Assembly: GCA_016192145.1 (NCBI GenBank)
Contig: JACPUT010000013.1
Coordinates: 1-64,000 of the forward strand
From: Acidobacteriota bacterium
GTDB lineage: Bacteria; Acidobacteriota; Holophagae; Holophagales; Holophagaceae
Direction of reading: 5' to 3'
Length of the DNA stretch: 64,000 bases
Positions 5,884 to 58,066 of the stretch are shown here, piece after piece. The notes under the pieces are model-generated. The model searched no databases. It worked only from the letters and a program-made list of their open reading frames with translations, and was not told the origin of the DNA. Numbering within the stretch: the first letter of the stretch is position 1; the number at the start of each line of letters is the position of its first letter. The translations under genes and the position numbers were made by a program.

Positions 5884-6013
5884 CTAACGCAGAGGCGCGG
5901 AGGCGCGGAGGCGCTGAGACGCAGAGGGTGTGCAGGTCAAGCTCCAAGGCTACAAGTCGGCATTCATTCCTCTGCGCCTCCGCGTCTCTGCGCCTCTGCG
6001 TCTCTGCGTTAGT
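5884..6013. repeat. Intergenic inverted tandem-repeat hairpin (GCAGAGGC / GCGCCTCT family), copy 1
   Basis: ctaacgcagaggcgcggaggcgcggaggcgctgagacgcagagg faces cctctgcgcctccgcgtctctgcgcctctgcgtctctgcgttag. Confidence 0.9.
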
Positions 6014-8577: not shown

Positions 8578-8681
8578 AACGCAGAGGCGCGGAGACGCAG
8601 AGGCGCAGAGAAACAGAGAGGAAGGAGCATCCCGCTTTTCTCTGCGTCTCCGCGCCTCTGCGCCTCTGCGCCTCTGCGTTA
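8578..8681. repeat. Intergenic inverted tandem-repeat hairpin (GCAGAGGC / GCGCCTCT family), copy 2
   Basis: aacgcagaggcgcggagacgcagaggcgcagagaaa faces tttctctgcgtctccgcgcctctgcgcctctgcgcctctgcgtt. Confidence 0.9.
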
Positions 8682-9501: not shown

Positions 9502-9655
9502 GGGGCTTTGGGCTCTGGGCTCTGGGCTCTGGGCTCTGGCTGACCCGGGTGGGGCGGATCGGTACGGCCGGGTCGGCGCCAGCCAGAGCCAAGAGCCCAT
9601 AGCCAAGAGCCCAGAGCCAAGACCCCAAAGCCAAGAGCCCACGGCCCAGCGCCCA
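9502..9655. repeat. Intergenic inverted tandem-repeat hairpin (GGCTCTG family), copy 1
   Basis: (gggctct)n arm, apex ctgacccgggt...gccgggtcggcgccag, then agccagagccaagagcccatagccaagagcccagagcc. Confidence 0.9.
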
Positions 9656-14359: not shown

Positions 14360-14746
14360 ATGGCTTCGCCCCGCTGTGAACCCAACATCACCCCCCTCAT
14401 CGATATCGTCCTCGTGCTGCTCATCGTGTTCATGGTGATGGTGCCGGGGCTCCAGGTGGCGGCCATCGTGAACCTCCCGGCCAAGGGGACGGGGGGCGCG
14501 GGGCGGCCTCCGCTCAAGGTCAAAATGGATGGCGCGGGCCTCATCAGCGTCGATGGCCAGCCCGTGATCTACCCGGAGCTGCCCCGGGCCGTGGCGGCGG
14601 GCCTGAGGGATCGCTTCGGCCAGGATCGCCGGGCCGTGGTGGCCGTCCATGCGGGCCAGCCCTTCCAACGGGCCGCGGATCTGCTGGACGTGGTGAAGGG
14701 GCTCCACCCGGACGTTACCGTCGCCCTGGTGGAGGCGAAGGAGTGA
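14360..14746 (+). CDS. ExbD/TolR family protein
   Basis: CEPNITPLIDIVLVLLIVFMVMVPGLQ. Confidence 0.9.
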   Translation: MASPRCEPNITPLIDIVLVLLIVFMVMVPGLQVAAIVNLPAKGTGGAGRPPLKVKMDGAGLISVDGQPVIYPELPRAVAAGLRDRFGQDRRAVVAVHAGQPFQRAADLLDVVKGLHPDVTVALVEAKE

Positions 14747-14762
14747 ATGCCATGTAGACTGG

Positions 14763-15138
14763 AGCTGTGGATCAGGGCGCCGCGGGTGGCAACACCTGAG
14801 GAAAGTCCGGACTCCGCAGGGCAGTGGGCCAGCTAACGACTGGGCGGGGCGACCCGACGGAAAGTGCAACAGAGAGCAGACCGCCGATGGCCCCGAAAGG
14901 GGATCAGGTAAGGGTGAAAGGGTGGGGTAAGAGCCCACCGCCGTCCTGGTAACAGGCCGGGCATGGTAAACCCCCCACGGAGCAAGACCAAATAGGCCGG
15001 CGTACTCGAAAGAGCGAGGATTGGCCCGATCGAGCCGGCGGGTAGGTTGCTTGAGGTGGCGAGTGATCGCCATCCCAGAGGAATGGCGCCCCAGACCCCT
15101 AACAAGGTGGGACAGAATCCGGCTTACCGATCCACCAC
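14763..15138 (+). ncRNA. rnpB: RNase P RNA (bacterial type A)
   Basis: gaggaaagtccggactccgcagggcagtg; cgacggaaagtgcaacagagagcagaccgccgatgg; 3' acagaatccggcttac; P1 pairing gtggatc (14767-14773) / gatccac (15129-15135). Confidence 0.95.
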
Positions 15139-15340
15139 GGCCCCCGCAAGGGGGCCGCGCTGGAGGCTCCATCTCCACGGCCCGCAGGGGCGTGGGAGTC
15201 AGGCGGCAGCCTGACGTCAGATGGAGGGGAAGCCGGCCGGCTTACCCTCCATCGATCGCGATGCTCTCGCATCGCTCCCACTCGCCTTTGGCTCGCGGAG
15301 ATGGAGCCTCCCACAACGGCCCCCGCAAGGGGGCGGCGCT
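15137..15340. repeat. Multi-stem-loop element directly after rnpB
   Basis: 25-bp direct repeats (15137-15161, 15316-15340; one mismatch) plus perfect 15-bp inverted repeat ggaggctccatctcc (15162-15176)/ggagatggagcctcc (15297-15311) and internal stem atggaggg-aagccgg-ccggctta-ccctccat. Confidence 0.85.
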
Positions 15341-21315: not shown

Positions 21316-21323
21316 GGGCTTTA

Positions 21324-21428
21324 GGATCTTGGCTCTGGGCTTTGGCTGGATCCGACCCACACGGGCTTCAGAGCCGCTGGGTCCGGGTCAGCCAGAGCCC
21401 AGAGCCTAAAGCCTAAAGCCCAGAGCCT
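21324..21428. repeat. Intergenic inverted tandem-repeat hairpin (GGCTCTG family), copy 2
   Basis: ttggctctgggctttggctgg...cgacccac...gctgggtcc...cagccagagcccagagcctaaagcctaaagcc. Confidence 0.9.
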
Positions 21429-21449: not shown

Positions 21450-22517
21450 ATGCCAAAGCTCACCCTCGCCGACATCCAGCGCCTCCCCAAGACCGATCTG
21501 CACGTCCACCTGGACGGCTCCCTGCGGCCCTCGACCATCCTCGAATTGGCCGAGCAGCAGAAGGTGAAGCTGCCCGCGGACACGGTGGAGGGGCTCATGC
21601 CCCACGTCACCAAGGGCGAGGATTGCCCCTCCCTGGTGGAGTACCTCAAGGTCTTCGACATCACGCTCTCCGTGATGCAGACGTACGACAGCCTCGTGCG
21701 CACGGCCTTCGAGCTGGCCGAAGATGCCGCTCTGGAAAACGTCCGCTACATGGAGGTGCGCTACGCCCCCATCCTCCACCAGCAGCAGGGGCTCTCGCTG
21801 TCTACCATCGTGCAGGCGGTGCTGGAGGGCCTGCGCCTCGCGGAGAAGAAATACGACATCAAGACCGGCGTGATCATCTGCGGAATCCGCCACATCAGCC
21901 CCGAGGTGTCGCTCAAGCTGGCGGATCTCACCGTCGCCTTCAAGAACAAGGGCGTGGTGGGTTTCGACCTGGCGGGCGCCGAAGAGAACTTTCCCGCCAA
22001 GAAGTTCAAGGATGCCTTCAGCCGGGTGTTGGCCAACAACATCAACTGCACCCTCCATGCCGGCGAGGCCTTCGGCCCCGAGAGCATCCACCAGGCCGTG
22101 CACCTCTGCGGCGCCCACCGCATCGGCCATGGCGTGCGGCTGGTGGAGGACGGCGACCTCATGAACTACGTGAACGACCACCGCATCCCCCTGGAGTGCT
22201 GCCCCAGCTCCAACGTGCAGACGAAGGCGGTGAAGCGGATGGAGGATCACCCCATCCGCCTTTTCTACGACCTGGGCCTGCGCGTCACCGTGAACACCGA
22301 CAACCGCCTCGTCACGGGCACCACCGTGAGCGAGGAGTTCCTGAAGCTCCACGAGACCCACAACTTCAACCTCGAGGAGATGAAGGAGATCATCATCATG
22401 GGCTTCAAGAGCGCCTTCCTCCCCTACGCCCTCAAGCGCGCCCTGCTCGCCGACGTCGTCGCCGAGCTGAAGGCCTTCAAGCCGGGCAGCCTTGAATCCA
22501 AGCGGGAGAGCCTTTAG
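21450..22517 (+). CDS. add: Adenosine deaminase
   Basis: LPKTDLHVHLDGSLRPSTI; LHAGEAFGPESIHQAV; GHGVRL; CPSSNVQT; NTDNRLVT. Confidence 0.92.
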   Translation: MPKLTLADIQRLPKTDLHVHLDGSLRPSTILELAEQQKVKLPADTVEGLMPHVTKGEDCPSLVEYLKVFDITLSVMQTYDSLVRTAFELAEDAALENVRYMEVRYAPILHQQQGLSLSTIVQAVLEGLRLAEKKYDIKTGVIICGIRHISPEVSLKLADLTVAFKNKGVVGFDLAGAEENFPAKKFKDAFSRVLANNINCTLHAGEAFGPESIHQAVHLCGAHRIGHGVRLVEDGDLMNYVNDHRIPLECCPSSNVQTKAVKRMEDHPIRLFYDLGLRVTVNTDNRLVTGTTVSEEFLKLHETHNFNLEEMKEIIIMGFKSAFLPYALKRALLADVVAELKAFKPGSLESKRESL

Positions 22518-22612
22518 AACGCGAAGAGCGCGAAGAAGTGCGCAAAGAGCGCGAAGAAAAGCGGGTTATCTAATTGGCGCCCTTCGCGCTTTTCTTCGCG
22601 CTCTTCGCGTTC
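22518..22612. repeat. Intergenic inverted tandem-repeat hairpin (GCGCGAAGA family)
   Basis: gaacgcgaagagcgcgaagaa (perfect 21 nt) faces ttcttcgcgctcttcgcgttc; additional unit copies in both arms. Confidence 0.9.
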
Positions 22613-34506: not shown

Positions 34507-34669
34507 GGTCCTTAGTCCTTAGTCCTTAGTCCTTGGTCCTTGGTCCTTAGCTCAAGTCGACCCATTCCGCCCTTGCGATGGTTCCATCAGGTCTGAAAAA
34601 CGAAGGGCTTGTCGAGGCTCAATTCTCGAATGGTGTAGCCAAGGACCAAGGACCAAGGACCAAGGACTC
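34507..34669. repeat. Intergenic inverted tandem-repeat hairpin (CCTTAGT/CCTTGGT family)
   Basis: ggtccttagtccttagtccttagtccttggtccttggtccttag faces ccaaggaccaaggaccaaggaccaaggac across ~90 nt. Confidence 0.88.
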
Positions 34670-37774: not shown

Positions 37775-37995
37775 AAGAAAGCCGGAGATGAACGGAAATG
37801 AACGGAGATGGGCACATCGACCTGCCATCACTGTTCATCACTGTTCATCACTGGTTTTCCTTTTTTGCCTTTTGAATCCACCGCATCTCGCCTAATGCCT
37901 GGCCATCAAAGATCAACCGGTGATGAACAGTGATGAAAAATGATGAACAGTGATGGCACTTGAACGGTCGATCTCCGTCCATCTCCGGCTTTCTT
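37775..37995. repeat. Long nested intergenic hairpin of tandem repeats (TGATGAACAG family)
   Basis: Outer arms aagaaagccggagatgaacggaaatgaacggagatgg / gatctccgtccatctccggctttctt; inner arms tgccatcactgttcatcactgttcatcactggtt / aaccggtgatgaacagtgatgaaaaatgatgaacagtgatggca. Confidence 0.92.
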
Positions 37996-39733: not shown

Positions 39734-39745
39734 GAAAAATACCAA

Positions 39746-39838
39746 CGCGGAGGTGAGCGGAGAAATGCCGGAGGTGAGCGGAGTAAACCCCATGGGTTCT
39801 TCCTCCGCTCACCTCCGGCTTTTCTCGTCGTTTCTCCG
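39746..39838. repeat. Intergenic inverted tandem-repeat hairpin (GGAGGTGAGCGGAG family)
   Basis: gccggaggtgagcggag (39767-39783) faces ctccgctcacctccggc (39803-39819); outer copy gcggaggtgagcggagaaa / tttctccgcg. Confidence 0.9.
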
Positions 39839-39901
39839 CGAATGTAGTTGATCTTTCCCCACTGCTTCGGATCCGAAACCCTTCGGTGCGACACTGAATC
39901 C

Positions 39902-44994: not shown

Positions 44995-46365
44995 ATGCCC
45001 ACCACCCTCATCGAACCCTTCCGCATCAAATCCGTGGAGCCCATCCGCATGACCACCCGCGCCGAGCGCGAGGCCCTGCTGGAGAAGGCCCACCTGAACC
45101 CCTTCCTCCTGCACGCGGACGACGTGCTCATCGACTTCCTCACGGACTCCGGCACCGGGGCCATGAGCGCCAAGCAGTGGGGCGCCATCATGGAAGGCGA
45201 CGAGAGCTATGCCGGCGCCCGCAGCTTCTTCCGCCTGGAAGCCGTGATCCAGCGCCTCACGGGCTATCCGCACCTGATCCCCACCCACCAGGGCCGCGCC
45301 GCCGAGCGCATCCTCTTCACCGTGGCGGGCAAGCCCGGCGACATCGTGCCCAGCAACACCCACTTCGACACCACCCGCGCCAACCTGGAGGCGAGCGGCG
45401 TGGTGGCCCTGGATCTCGTGATCCCCGAGGGCCTGCAGCCCCGGACCATCCACCCCTTCAAGGGCAACATCGATCTGGACCGCGTGGAGGACCTGCTGAA
45501 GCGCGACGGCGACAAGGTGCCCTTCGGCATGCTCACCGTGACCAACAACAGCGGCGGCGGCCAGCCCGTCTCCATGGCCAACCTCCGGGCCTATTCGGCG
45601 CTGCTGAAGCGGTACGGCAAGCCCCTCGTGCTGGACGTGTGCCGCTTCGCCGAGAACGCCATGTTCGTGAAGCTGCGCGAGGAGGGCTATCAAGATCGCA
45701 GCATCGAGAGCATCGTGCAGGAGATGTTCAGCTACGGCGATGGCTGCACGATGAGCGCCAAGAAGGACGGCATGGTGAACATCGGCGGCTTCATCGCCCT
45801 GAAGGATGAGCGCTGGCTGGAAGCCGCCCGCAACCTGCTGATCCTCACCGAGGGCTTCCCCACCTACGGCGGGCTCGCGGGCCGGGATCTGGAGGCCCTG
45901 GCCGTGGGCCTGGAGGAGGTGCTCCACGAGGACTACCTTCGCTACCGCCTGCGCACGGCCGAGTACATGGGCGAGAAGCTCAAGGCCGGGGGCGTGCAGA
46001 TCGTGGAGCCCACGGGCGGCCACGCCGTCTACATCGACGCCAAGGCCTTCCTGCCCCACCTCCAGAGCGAGGATTACCCCGCCTGGTCCCTGGCCAACGC
46101 CCTCTACCTCGAAGGCGGCATCCGGGGCGTGGAGATCGGCTCCGTGATGTTCGGGCGGCGGGACGACGACGGCACCGAGCACTACCACCCCATGGAGCTC
46201 GTGCGCCTCGCCTTCCCCCGCCGGGTCTACACTCAGAGCCACTTCGACTACGCCGCCGAGGTCATCTGCGAGCTCAAGTCCAAGGCGGAGCAGGTGAAGG
46301 GCGTCCGCATCACCAAGCAGAGCAAGTACCTGAGGCACTTCACGGCCCAATTTCGCTGGGCCTAG
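44995..46365 (+). CDS. tnaA: Tryptophanase (beta-eliminating lyase family)
   Basis: EPFRIKSVEPIRMTTRAEREALLEKAHLNPFLLHADDVLIDFLTDSGTGAMSAKQWGAIMEGDESYAG; SYGDGCTMSAKKDGMVNIGG PLP-lysine region. Confidence 0.9.
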   Translation: MPTTLIEPFRIKSVEPIRMTTRAEREALLEKAHLNPFLLHADDVLIDFLTDSGTGAMSAKQWGAIMEGDESYAGARSFFRLEAVIQRLTGYPHLIPTHQGRAAERILFTVAGKPGDIVPSNTHFDTTRANLEASGVVALDLVIPEGLQPRTIHPFKGNIDLDRVEDLLKRDGDKVPFGMLTVTNNSGGGQPVSMANLRAYSALLKRYGKPLVLDVCRFAENAMFVKLREEGYQDRSIESIVQEMFSYGDGCTMSAKKDGMVNIGGFIALKDERWLEAARNLLILTEGFPTYGGLAGRDLEALAVGLEEVLHEDYLRYRLRTAEYMGEKLKAGGVQIVEPTGGHAVYIDAKAFLPHLQSEDYPAWSLANALYLEGGIRGVEIGSVMFGRRDDDGTEHYHPMELVRLAFPRRVYTQSHFDYAAEVICELKSKAEQVKGVRITKQSKYLRHFTAQFRWA

Positions 46366-46635
46366 GAGGGTGTCCAAGCAACCCGTGGGAACCGCGTTGA
46401 AACCAAAGGGGCCTCAGCCGAGGAGGCGTGCGCAGCGCGATGCGTGGGCATCGTGCAAGCGCGCCGACACTGGATCAGGCCCCTTTGATTTCAGCCCTTC
46501 GGGCTGGAGCGGCGGCCGTCGCGCCCCTGCGTTGGCCTCCCTCAGTGGTGCGCCCACACCACCTTCGGTCGGCCGCCTTGGGGCGCTCGGCCGGCGCTCC
46601 AGCGCGGCCCCAGGGGTTGCTTGGACACCCTCCTA
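46363..46635. repeat. 273-bp element with perfect 22-bp terminal inverted repeats
   Basis: taggagggtgtccaagcaaccc (46363-46384) and gggttgcttggacaccctccta (46614-46635); internal gctggagcggcggccgtcgcgcccc / ggggcgctcggccggcgctccagc. Confidence 0.85.
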
Positions 46636-53293: not shown

Positions 53294-53356
53294 AGGCTGG
53301 AGGCTGGAGGCCGGAGACTGCAGGCCCTCCAGCCTCCAGCCTCCGGCCTCCGGCCT
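53294..53356. repeat. Inverted tandem-repeat hairpin (GGCTGGA/GGCCGGA family) between yajC and secDF
   Basis: ggctggaggctggaggccggag (53295-53316) faces ctccagcctccagcctccggcctccggcc (53327-53355). Confidence 0.88.
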
Positions 53357-56931: not shown

Positions 56932-57432
56932 ATGGGTGCAAGTGTAGGCGACAAGAAGGGTGGGCTCAGCGCCAACATCAACGTCACGCCCCTCGTGGAC
57001 ATCGTGCTGGTGCTTCTGATCATCTTCATCGTGATCACGCCCGCGGTGGACGCCAGCGTGAAGTTGCCCCTGGCGAAGCACTCCCCCAAGGTGGAGAAGG
57101 ATCCCGGAGCGAAGTACCTCACCGTGGTGTACCAGTCCAAGAAGGACCCCAACGGCAAGTACCTCGGACCCGGCCCCATCTCCATCGATGAGAAGGATGC
57201 CCAGAACAAGCTGTTCGCCCTCGATGGCGGTGCCAAGGAGCAGGAGCTGGGCGATTTCATCAATCGCAACGTCTCCTATCTGACGGACAAGCGCGTCTTC
57301 GTGAAGGCCGACGGCGACATGCCTTACTCCGAAGTGGACAAGCTCTTCAAGCTCATCAAGAAGAGCGGCGCCGATGAGGCGTCCATCGTCACCGGCGAGG
57401 ACAAGGACACCAAGAAGGAAGGGGGCAAGTAA
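56932..57432 (+). CDS. exbD: ExbD family protein
   Basis: LSANINVTPLVDIVLVLLIIFIVITPAV. Confidence 0.93.
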   Translation: MGASVGDKKGGLSANINVTPLVDIVLVLLIIFIVITPAVDASVKLPLAKHSPKVEKDPGAKYLTVVYQSKKDPNGKYLGPGPISIDEKDAQNKLFALDGGAKEQELGDFINRNVSYLTDKRVFVKADGDMPYSEVDKLFKLIKKSGADEASIVTGEDKDTKKEGGK

Positions 57433-57914: not shown

Positions 57915-57939
57915 GTTTTCAGCACAGTCGAACACCAGT

Positions 57940-57957
57940 GGCGCCCGAAAGGGCGCC
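57940..57957 (+). terminator. Terminator-like hairpin after exbD
   Basis: ggcgcccgaaagggcgcc. Confidence 0.6.
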
Positions 57958-57966
57958 GCTGCATTT

Positions 57967-58066
57967 ATGAGGCTTTTGGCTTTGGGCTCTGGCTGTATTC
58001 GACCCATCCGTGCCGCAGCGCTGGGTCGAAAACAGCCAGAGCCAAGAGCCCAAAGCCAAAAGCCAA
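57967..58066. repeat. Intergenic inverted tandem-repeat hairpin (GGCTCTG family), copy 3
   Basis: aggcttttggctttgggctctggctg-tattcgacccatccgtgccgcagcgctgggtcgaaaa-cagccagagccaagagcccaaagccaaaagcc. Confidence 0.93.

Follow-up and report, generated by a model that had tools for sequence, protein, structure and literature searches.

Heptamer repeats between genes are known from several bacteria, and there is no agreed mechanism for their spread. An inverted heptamer hairpin at positions 57967-58066 of a 64,000-nucleotide stretch of Acidobacteriota DNA (hereafter the window) raises the question of whether such elements possess a conserved part besides their arms and in what form that part is read. 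A sequence-only reading had proposed that three hairpins of the window share a conserved apical stem while their arms vary in unit number, as expected if a protein or RNA recognises the apex. This proposal was followed through the whole assembly (3.80 Mb in 19 contigs, 97.97% complete, 0.07% contamination) and through related genomes. The conserved part is a 7-bp half-site, CGACCCA, carried by members of a population of dozens of hairpins of about 100 bases that lie directly after gene ends.

Hairpins of the window

The GGCTYTG-arm hairpin of this locus spans 57971-58064 and belongs to class I, with a 47-nt core. Its left arm (57971-57991) is followed by GCTG (57992-57995), a forward-strand half-site CGACCCA (58000-58006), a loop of variable sequence and of the commonest length, 15 nt (58007-58021), and a reverse-strand half-site reading TGGGTCG (58022-58028) ahead of the right arm (58033-58064). 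A second GGCTYTG-arm hairpin at 21317-21427 has an exact left half-site at 21353-21359 and a right one with one mismatch, TGGGTCC, at 21378-21384. The copies at 57967-58066 and 21324-21428 both read GCTG-NNNN-CGACCCA...TGGGTC(G/C)-NNNN-CAGC, and both fold far beyond shuffled sequences (z of -10.4 and -6.2, respectively). The shared apex was confirmed for these two hairpins but not for the third, at 9502-9655. This GGCTYTG-arm hairpin (9504-9639, with arms of 5 and 8 units and a 47-nt core) contains GACCCG...CGGGTC in a shifted register only; its right half-site is degenerate (CGGGTCG, one mismatch), and none is found in register on the left. The proposed alignment of the two apical loops likewise did not extend to the family, in which the loop varies from 5 to 33 nt (15 nt in 16 copies). 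An Rfam search at gathering score gave no match except RNase P RNA at 14764-15142.

A half-site conserved among arm-defined hairpins

The GGCTYTGGGCTYTG pattern gave 81 matches in the genome and 0 for the reversed control. These collapse to about 36 loci, 3 of them inside the window, and the pattern is near-absent from 60 relatives (0-5 per genome). GGCTYTG hairpins were gathered genome-wide on their arms alone, and the resulting 33 usable copies provide the unbiased measure of half-site conservation; a 34th match (L043), without a true left arm, was left out. Family tallies throughout are counted by exact patterns and are therefore lower bounds.

CGACCCA occupies a fixed register, 4 bases inside the closing GCTG, and is exact on 34 of the 66 sides, where about 0.01 is expected from the window base-frequency probability multiplied by 66 sides. 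Allowing at most one mismatch raises the in-register count to 41/66. An exact half-site is present on both sides in 13 of the 33 hairpins and on at least one side in 21. The statement that the arms vary and the core motif is kept thus holds for arm-defined copies across the genome, and a lack of apex conservation in further copies, the outcome that would speak against it, did not occur among these 33. Information content is 0.35-1.3 bits at half-site positions versus mostly 0.05-0.6 bit in the spacer and loop, conservation being concentrated in the half-site along with the closing GGCTG.

Core length is quantised: of the 33 hairpins, 11 have a core of 47 nt and 9 one of 63-64 nt, and the commonest core bears CGACCCA as an inverted pair with constant spacing from the arms. 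Most of the 12 hairpins that lack an exact in-register half-site have the different 63-64-nt core, and their existence indicates that the half-site is not strictly required for persistence. Several longer cores read, by eye, GCTG-RTTC-CGG...TTGCAT...ATGCCGTACCCAGC. The CG at half-site positions 1-2 is kept on 60/66 sides, longer cores included.

The genome contains 33 instances of the paired form CGACCCA-N5-34-TGGGTCG versus one of a reversed-pattern control, and the single 7-mer CGACCCA is not enriched over the 200-264 kb sampled (41 in 200 kb versus 46 expected). Across 76 further family genomes the paired apex stays at background level, at 0-2 each (control patterns, 0-5).

The half-site in other arm families

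The inverted arms, mostly of 3-5 tandem units, are built from one of three heptamers, GGCTYTG, GGTCCTT or GGAGRCY. With regard to G-quadruplex formation, GGGCTYT tracts fit G3N4 by eye, but the GGTCCTT and GGAGRCY families have GG runs only. When hairpins were again collected by their arms alone, at least one exact half-site was present in 16 of 19 CCTTRGT hairpins (both in 5) and in 6 of 25 GGAGRCY hairpins, the chance of an exact half-site being about 0.01 per interior in either family. Nineteen paired apices lie outside the first arm set: in 8 the GGCTYTG arms diverge too far to match the first arm pattern, 5 have CCTTRGT arms and 6 have GGAGRCY arms.

Both additional types are represented in the window. 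The CCTTRGT-arm hairpin at 34508-34667, with a 90-nt core, retains one exact half-site, CGACCCATTCCG, at 34558-34564, so that the suspected link between this CCTTGGT element and the GGCTCTG family was well founded and extends to three arm families. The GGAGRCY-arm hairpin at 53294-53356 is without the apex module. About eleven GGAGRCY hairpins (L321, L337, L343, L350, L361, L364, L369-L372) have a different core, made of two small GC stem-loops; their stems differ (GCGGGCGCC..., GCGGCC...), and the fold is branched in several copies.

Search for a mobiliser and wider distribution

The mobiliser search covered the Y1 transposase and reverse transcriptase in an assembly that misses 2% of the genome. 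Y1 tyrosine transposase/RAYT (PF01797) gave 0 matches in the genome, with 5 of 14 control genomes matched, and reverse transcriptase (PF00078) was absent from the 98% complete assembly. Because both genes are absent from the assembly, the REPIN-type Y1 route and the reverse-transcriptase routes are unsupported; a group II intron, retron or diversity-generating element was rejected on the same absence of PF00078. The stretches between neighbouring copies within L036 and within L042 were inspected for an autonomous element, and their ORFs appeared by eye to be ordinary-looking host genes. No target-site duplication was visible at the gap sites read in the comparison with relatives.

The composite arm-plus-apex pattern gave 30 matches in 84,980 GTDB genomes and 18 in IMG/VR, all of them single; they were treated as chance because no second half-site lay within 50 nt and the sequence was ordinary by eye. 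Plasmid and phage collections gave no match, and neither did a literature search with exact sequence strings. GGCTYTG hairpins are present in another genus (G033), without the CGACCCA apex.

Proposed nature of the elements

With confidence only a little above even, we favour describing these elements as lineage-specific, non-autonomous dispersed palindromes at gene ends, with a half-site that would be read by a protein and arms that would evolve by slippage and template switching. The elements are dispersed and share the half-site; a recognising protein, a copying enzyme and the mechanism of arm change are inferred. Since the short core motif is constant across arms of at least three kinds, CGACCCA is probably what the putative protein recognises during element copying or retention. 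The protein would read the half-site by its sequence, either in duplex DNA or in an extruded hairpin, and a half-site common to elements with different arms offers a 7-bp bait for a protein that spreads or uses them. The arms may change through slippage and through template switching from one palindromic half to the other, and these processes would account for both the variable unit number and the concerted unit sequence. The sharing of one half-site by elements with different arms also suggests that the arm repeat sequence can turn over with element identity kept. Points that speak against this description are the failure to find a Y1 transposase or reverse transcriptase, the lack of a definable target-site duplication, the 12 of 33 GGCTYTG copies without an exact in-register half-site, and the loops, which in most copies bear almost no relation to one another, contrary to the prediction of a simple, recent burst of copying and pasting.

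It is also possible, although doubtful, that the elements are modular mobile hairpins in which a constant apical half-site is combined with swappable arm "dialects", spreading with no known REP transposase or reverse transcriptase. If so, each sister species would have evolved its own arm dialect and core.

Position relative to genes

All 52 apex- or GGCTYTG-bearing elements are intergenic with respect to genes called by a heuristic codon-usage caller written for this analysis, and the neighbouring stop codons mostly lie 0-20 bp away. Elements are over-represented in convergent gaps (17/52 versus 18/138 in the background, p 0.003), whereas they are under-represented in divergent ones (5/52 versus 36/138, p 0.017), in a test that is conservative because the background includes element-holding gaps. 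If the elements are dispersed palindromes, placement at stop codons could reflect a choice of 3' ends as targets or, alternatively, selection against insertions elsewhere.

The positions just past stops, the enrichment in convergent and depletion in divergent gaps and the very stable RNA folds would also suit hairpins that act mainly at the RNA level, as bidirectional terminators or 3'-end stabilisers under selection, the apex then being either a by-product or bound by a factor of termination or processing. We take such a role seriously, as a rival or as an additional function, but consider it rather unlikely as the main explanation. No U-tract follows the GGCTYTG hairpins of the window that were read, termination needs no short conserved half-site, and a lineage-specific apex and arms are not needed of a general terminator. 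Moreover, a separate GC hairpin (AGTGGCGCCC-GAAA-GGGCGCCGCT, 57937-57962) persists in the convergent gap of the 57967 element, and relatives carry an ordinary GC hairpin there.

Gain and copying of elements

Relatives were compared at three window sites of these arm families, namely 21324, 57967 and 53294. At 21324, no heptamer hairpin is found in the same gap of G001, G003, G004, G006, G007, G008, G010 and G011, which are eight of nine relatives; the ninth, G005, with an 814-nt gap, was left out. At 57967, the convergent gap of G001, G004 and G006 contains a terminator-like GC hairpin and no heptamer hairpin, and since the GC hairpin at 57937-57962 still adjoins the element in the present genome, the element looks added. 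On the simpler reading of these gaps, the elements at 57967 and 21324 would be gains in this lineage rather than losses in relatives. The GGAGRCY hairpin at 53294 has an orthologous same-unit hairpin in the sister species G001 (C128), which indicates that this arm family predates the split.

Inverted tandem hairpins occur at 9.5 per 100 kb here and 6.0 per 100 kb in the sister species, whose assembly is 76% complete, and 0 were found in 400 kb from three other genera. G001 has a heptamer family of its own, with GGCRTCR arms and a core that looks by eye like GGGCC-TGC...GCA-GGCCC. The hairpin at 22517-22612 of the window has the unit GCGCGAAGA versus CCACGAAGA in the orthologous gap of G001 (L182, 1536-1597); both are nine-base units, and the difference may represent either in-place unit turnover or independent gain. 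In the G001 gap orthologous to window 57915-58066 (L271, C150), the terminator-like GC hairpin is lengthened on each side by one complementary stretch of CACCACGAAG, resembling a nine-base unit, as if arms can grow on an existing terminator.

Two elements on different contigs, L042 and L055, have the whole element and about 20-35 nt of flank in common at 84% identity, which is direct evidence that elements have been copied from locus to locus and so do spread. The homology (L042 1872-2049, L055 880-1065) continues past the arms, with AGCCC-CAGCCC on the left and CCTGCACYGGTGAGTCGAACTG on the right, which suggests that some elements are longer than their hairpin.

This pair, clearly homologous through the core, and the predominance of the 15-nt loop are what common descent alone would leave, with recent copies retaining a half-site that has no role. 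We regard this account as improbable, as conservation in the arm-selected copies is concentrated on the half-site and GGCTG and not on the spacer and loop, and the half-site crosses three arm families.

Pairing within the core

Pairing was examined in 37 cores whose two half-sites each contain no more than one mismatch; overlapping registers cause one core to be counted twice. The seven half-site pairs are essentially invariant across these cores, an invariance that is partly built in because the set was selected on half-sites. No compensatory changes were found within the 7-bp half-site stem of the 37 cores. Pairing in their 4-nt spacer and inner loop does not exceed that of shuffled partners (p above 0.1), in contrast to arm positions further out, where it does. 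Many copies retain one half-site only. Rather than a structured RNA apex, the simplest reading of this pattern is a short half-site, recognised by sequence and present as an inverted pair. Recognition of the apex as a conserved RNA (or DNA) stem-loop, as first envisaged, is therefore very improbable, even though CGACCCA and TGGGTCG are able to pair and a loop of 5-33 nt without loss of the half-site is tolerable for a hairpin, given a stem without compensatory changes, a spacer and loop equal to shuffles and the many one-sided copies.

Comparison with known repeats

The GGGAATC heptamers of Xanthomonas and GGGGAYT heptamers of Nostoc are intergenic with about four units strongly preferred, lie less than 50 bp from stop codons on the coding strand and are rare between divergent genes; 70-75 inverted heptamer pairs per Xanthomonas genome are potential stem-loops or cruciforms (Rehm et al. 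2015, PMC4692102). The present elements are similar in their G-rich heptamer, about four units, intergenic location near stops and under-representation in divergent gaps. Unlike the Xanthomonas repeats, they typically have inverted arms, a core of defined length and a conserved half-site, and three heptamer families with a common core occur in one genome. In one Xanthomonas genome that we searched, GGGAATC repeats were mostly unpaired direct arrays, and no conserved apex or core was seen at them.

REPINs consist of a short invariant sequence that occurs as inverted pairs at dispersed extragenic sites. The pairs form hairpins around a variable spacer; their ends are invariant, and the stem of the spacer shows compensatory changes (Bertels and Rainey 2011, PMC3116915). 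The inverted pair of an invariant short extragenic sequence is also found here; however, the present elements differ in the absence of a Y1/RAYT transposase, in a half-site located at the apex, in arms of tandem heptamers and in the lack of compensatory spacer changes. Judging from these sequence features, we read the elements as probably related in kind to the Xanthomonas heptamer inverted repeats and to REPINs.

Bacterial MITEs are non-coding, intergenic elements of about 100-150 bp with inverted arms. The elements described here are likewise short, inverted-armed, non-coding and intergenic, but they are without fixed termini, with no target-site duplication seen and no parent insertion sequence found. 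A 273-bp stretch of the window at 46363-46635, largely intergenic by the heuristic gene calls, has 27-bp terminal inverted repeats that are 96% complementary and looks like a separate MITE-like element.

Further inverted tandem-repeat hairpins of the window lie at 286-359, 5886-6010, 8578-8680, 22517-22612, 37824-37957 and 39737-39849, all without the CGACCCA core. Their units are about 8 to 10 bases long (CGCAGAGR, GCGCGAAGA, TTCATCACTG and others). Finally, two stretches within called genes, 14383-14465 and 56971-57034, gave several matches each in most relatives searched, at about 72-87% identity.
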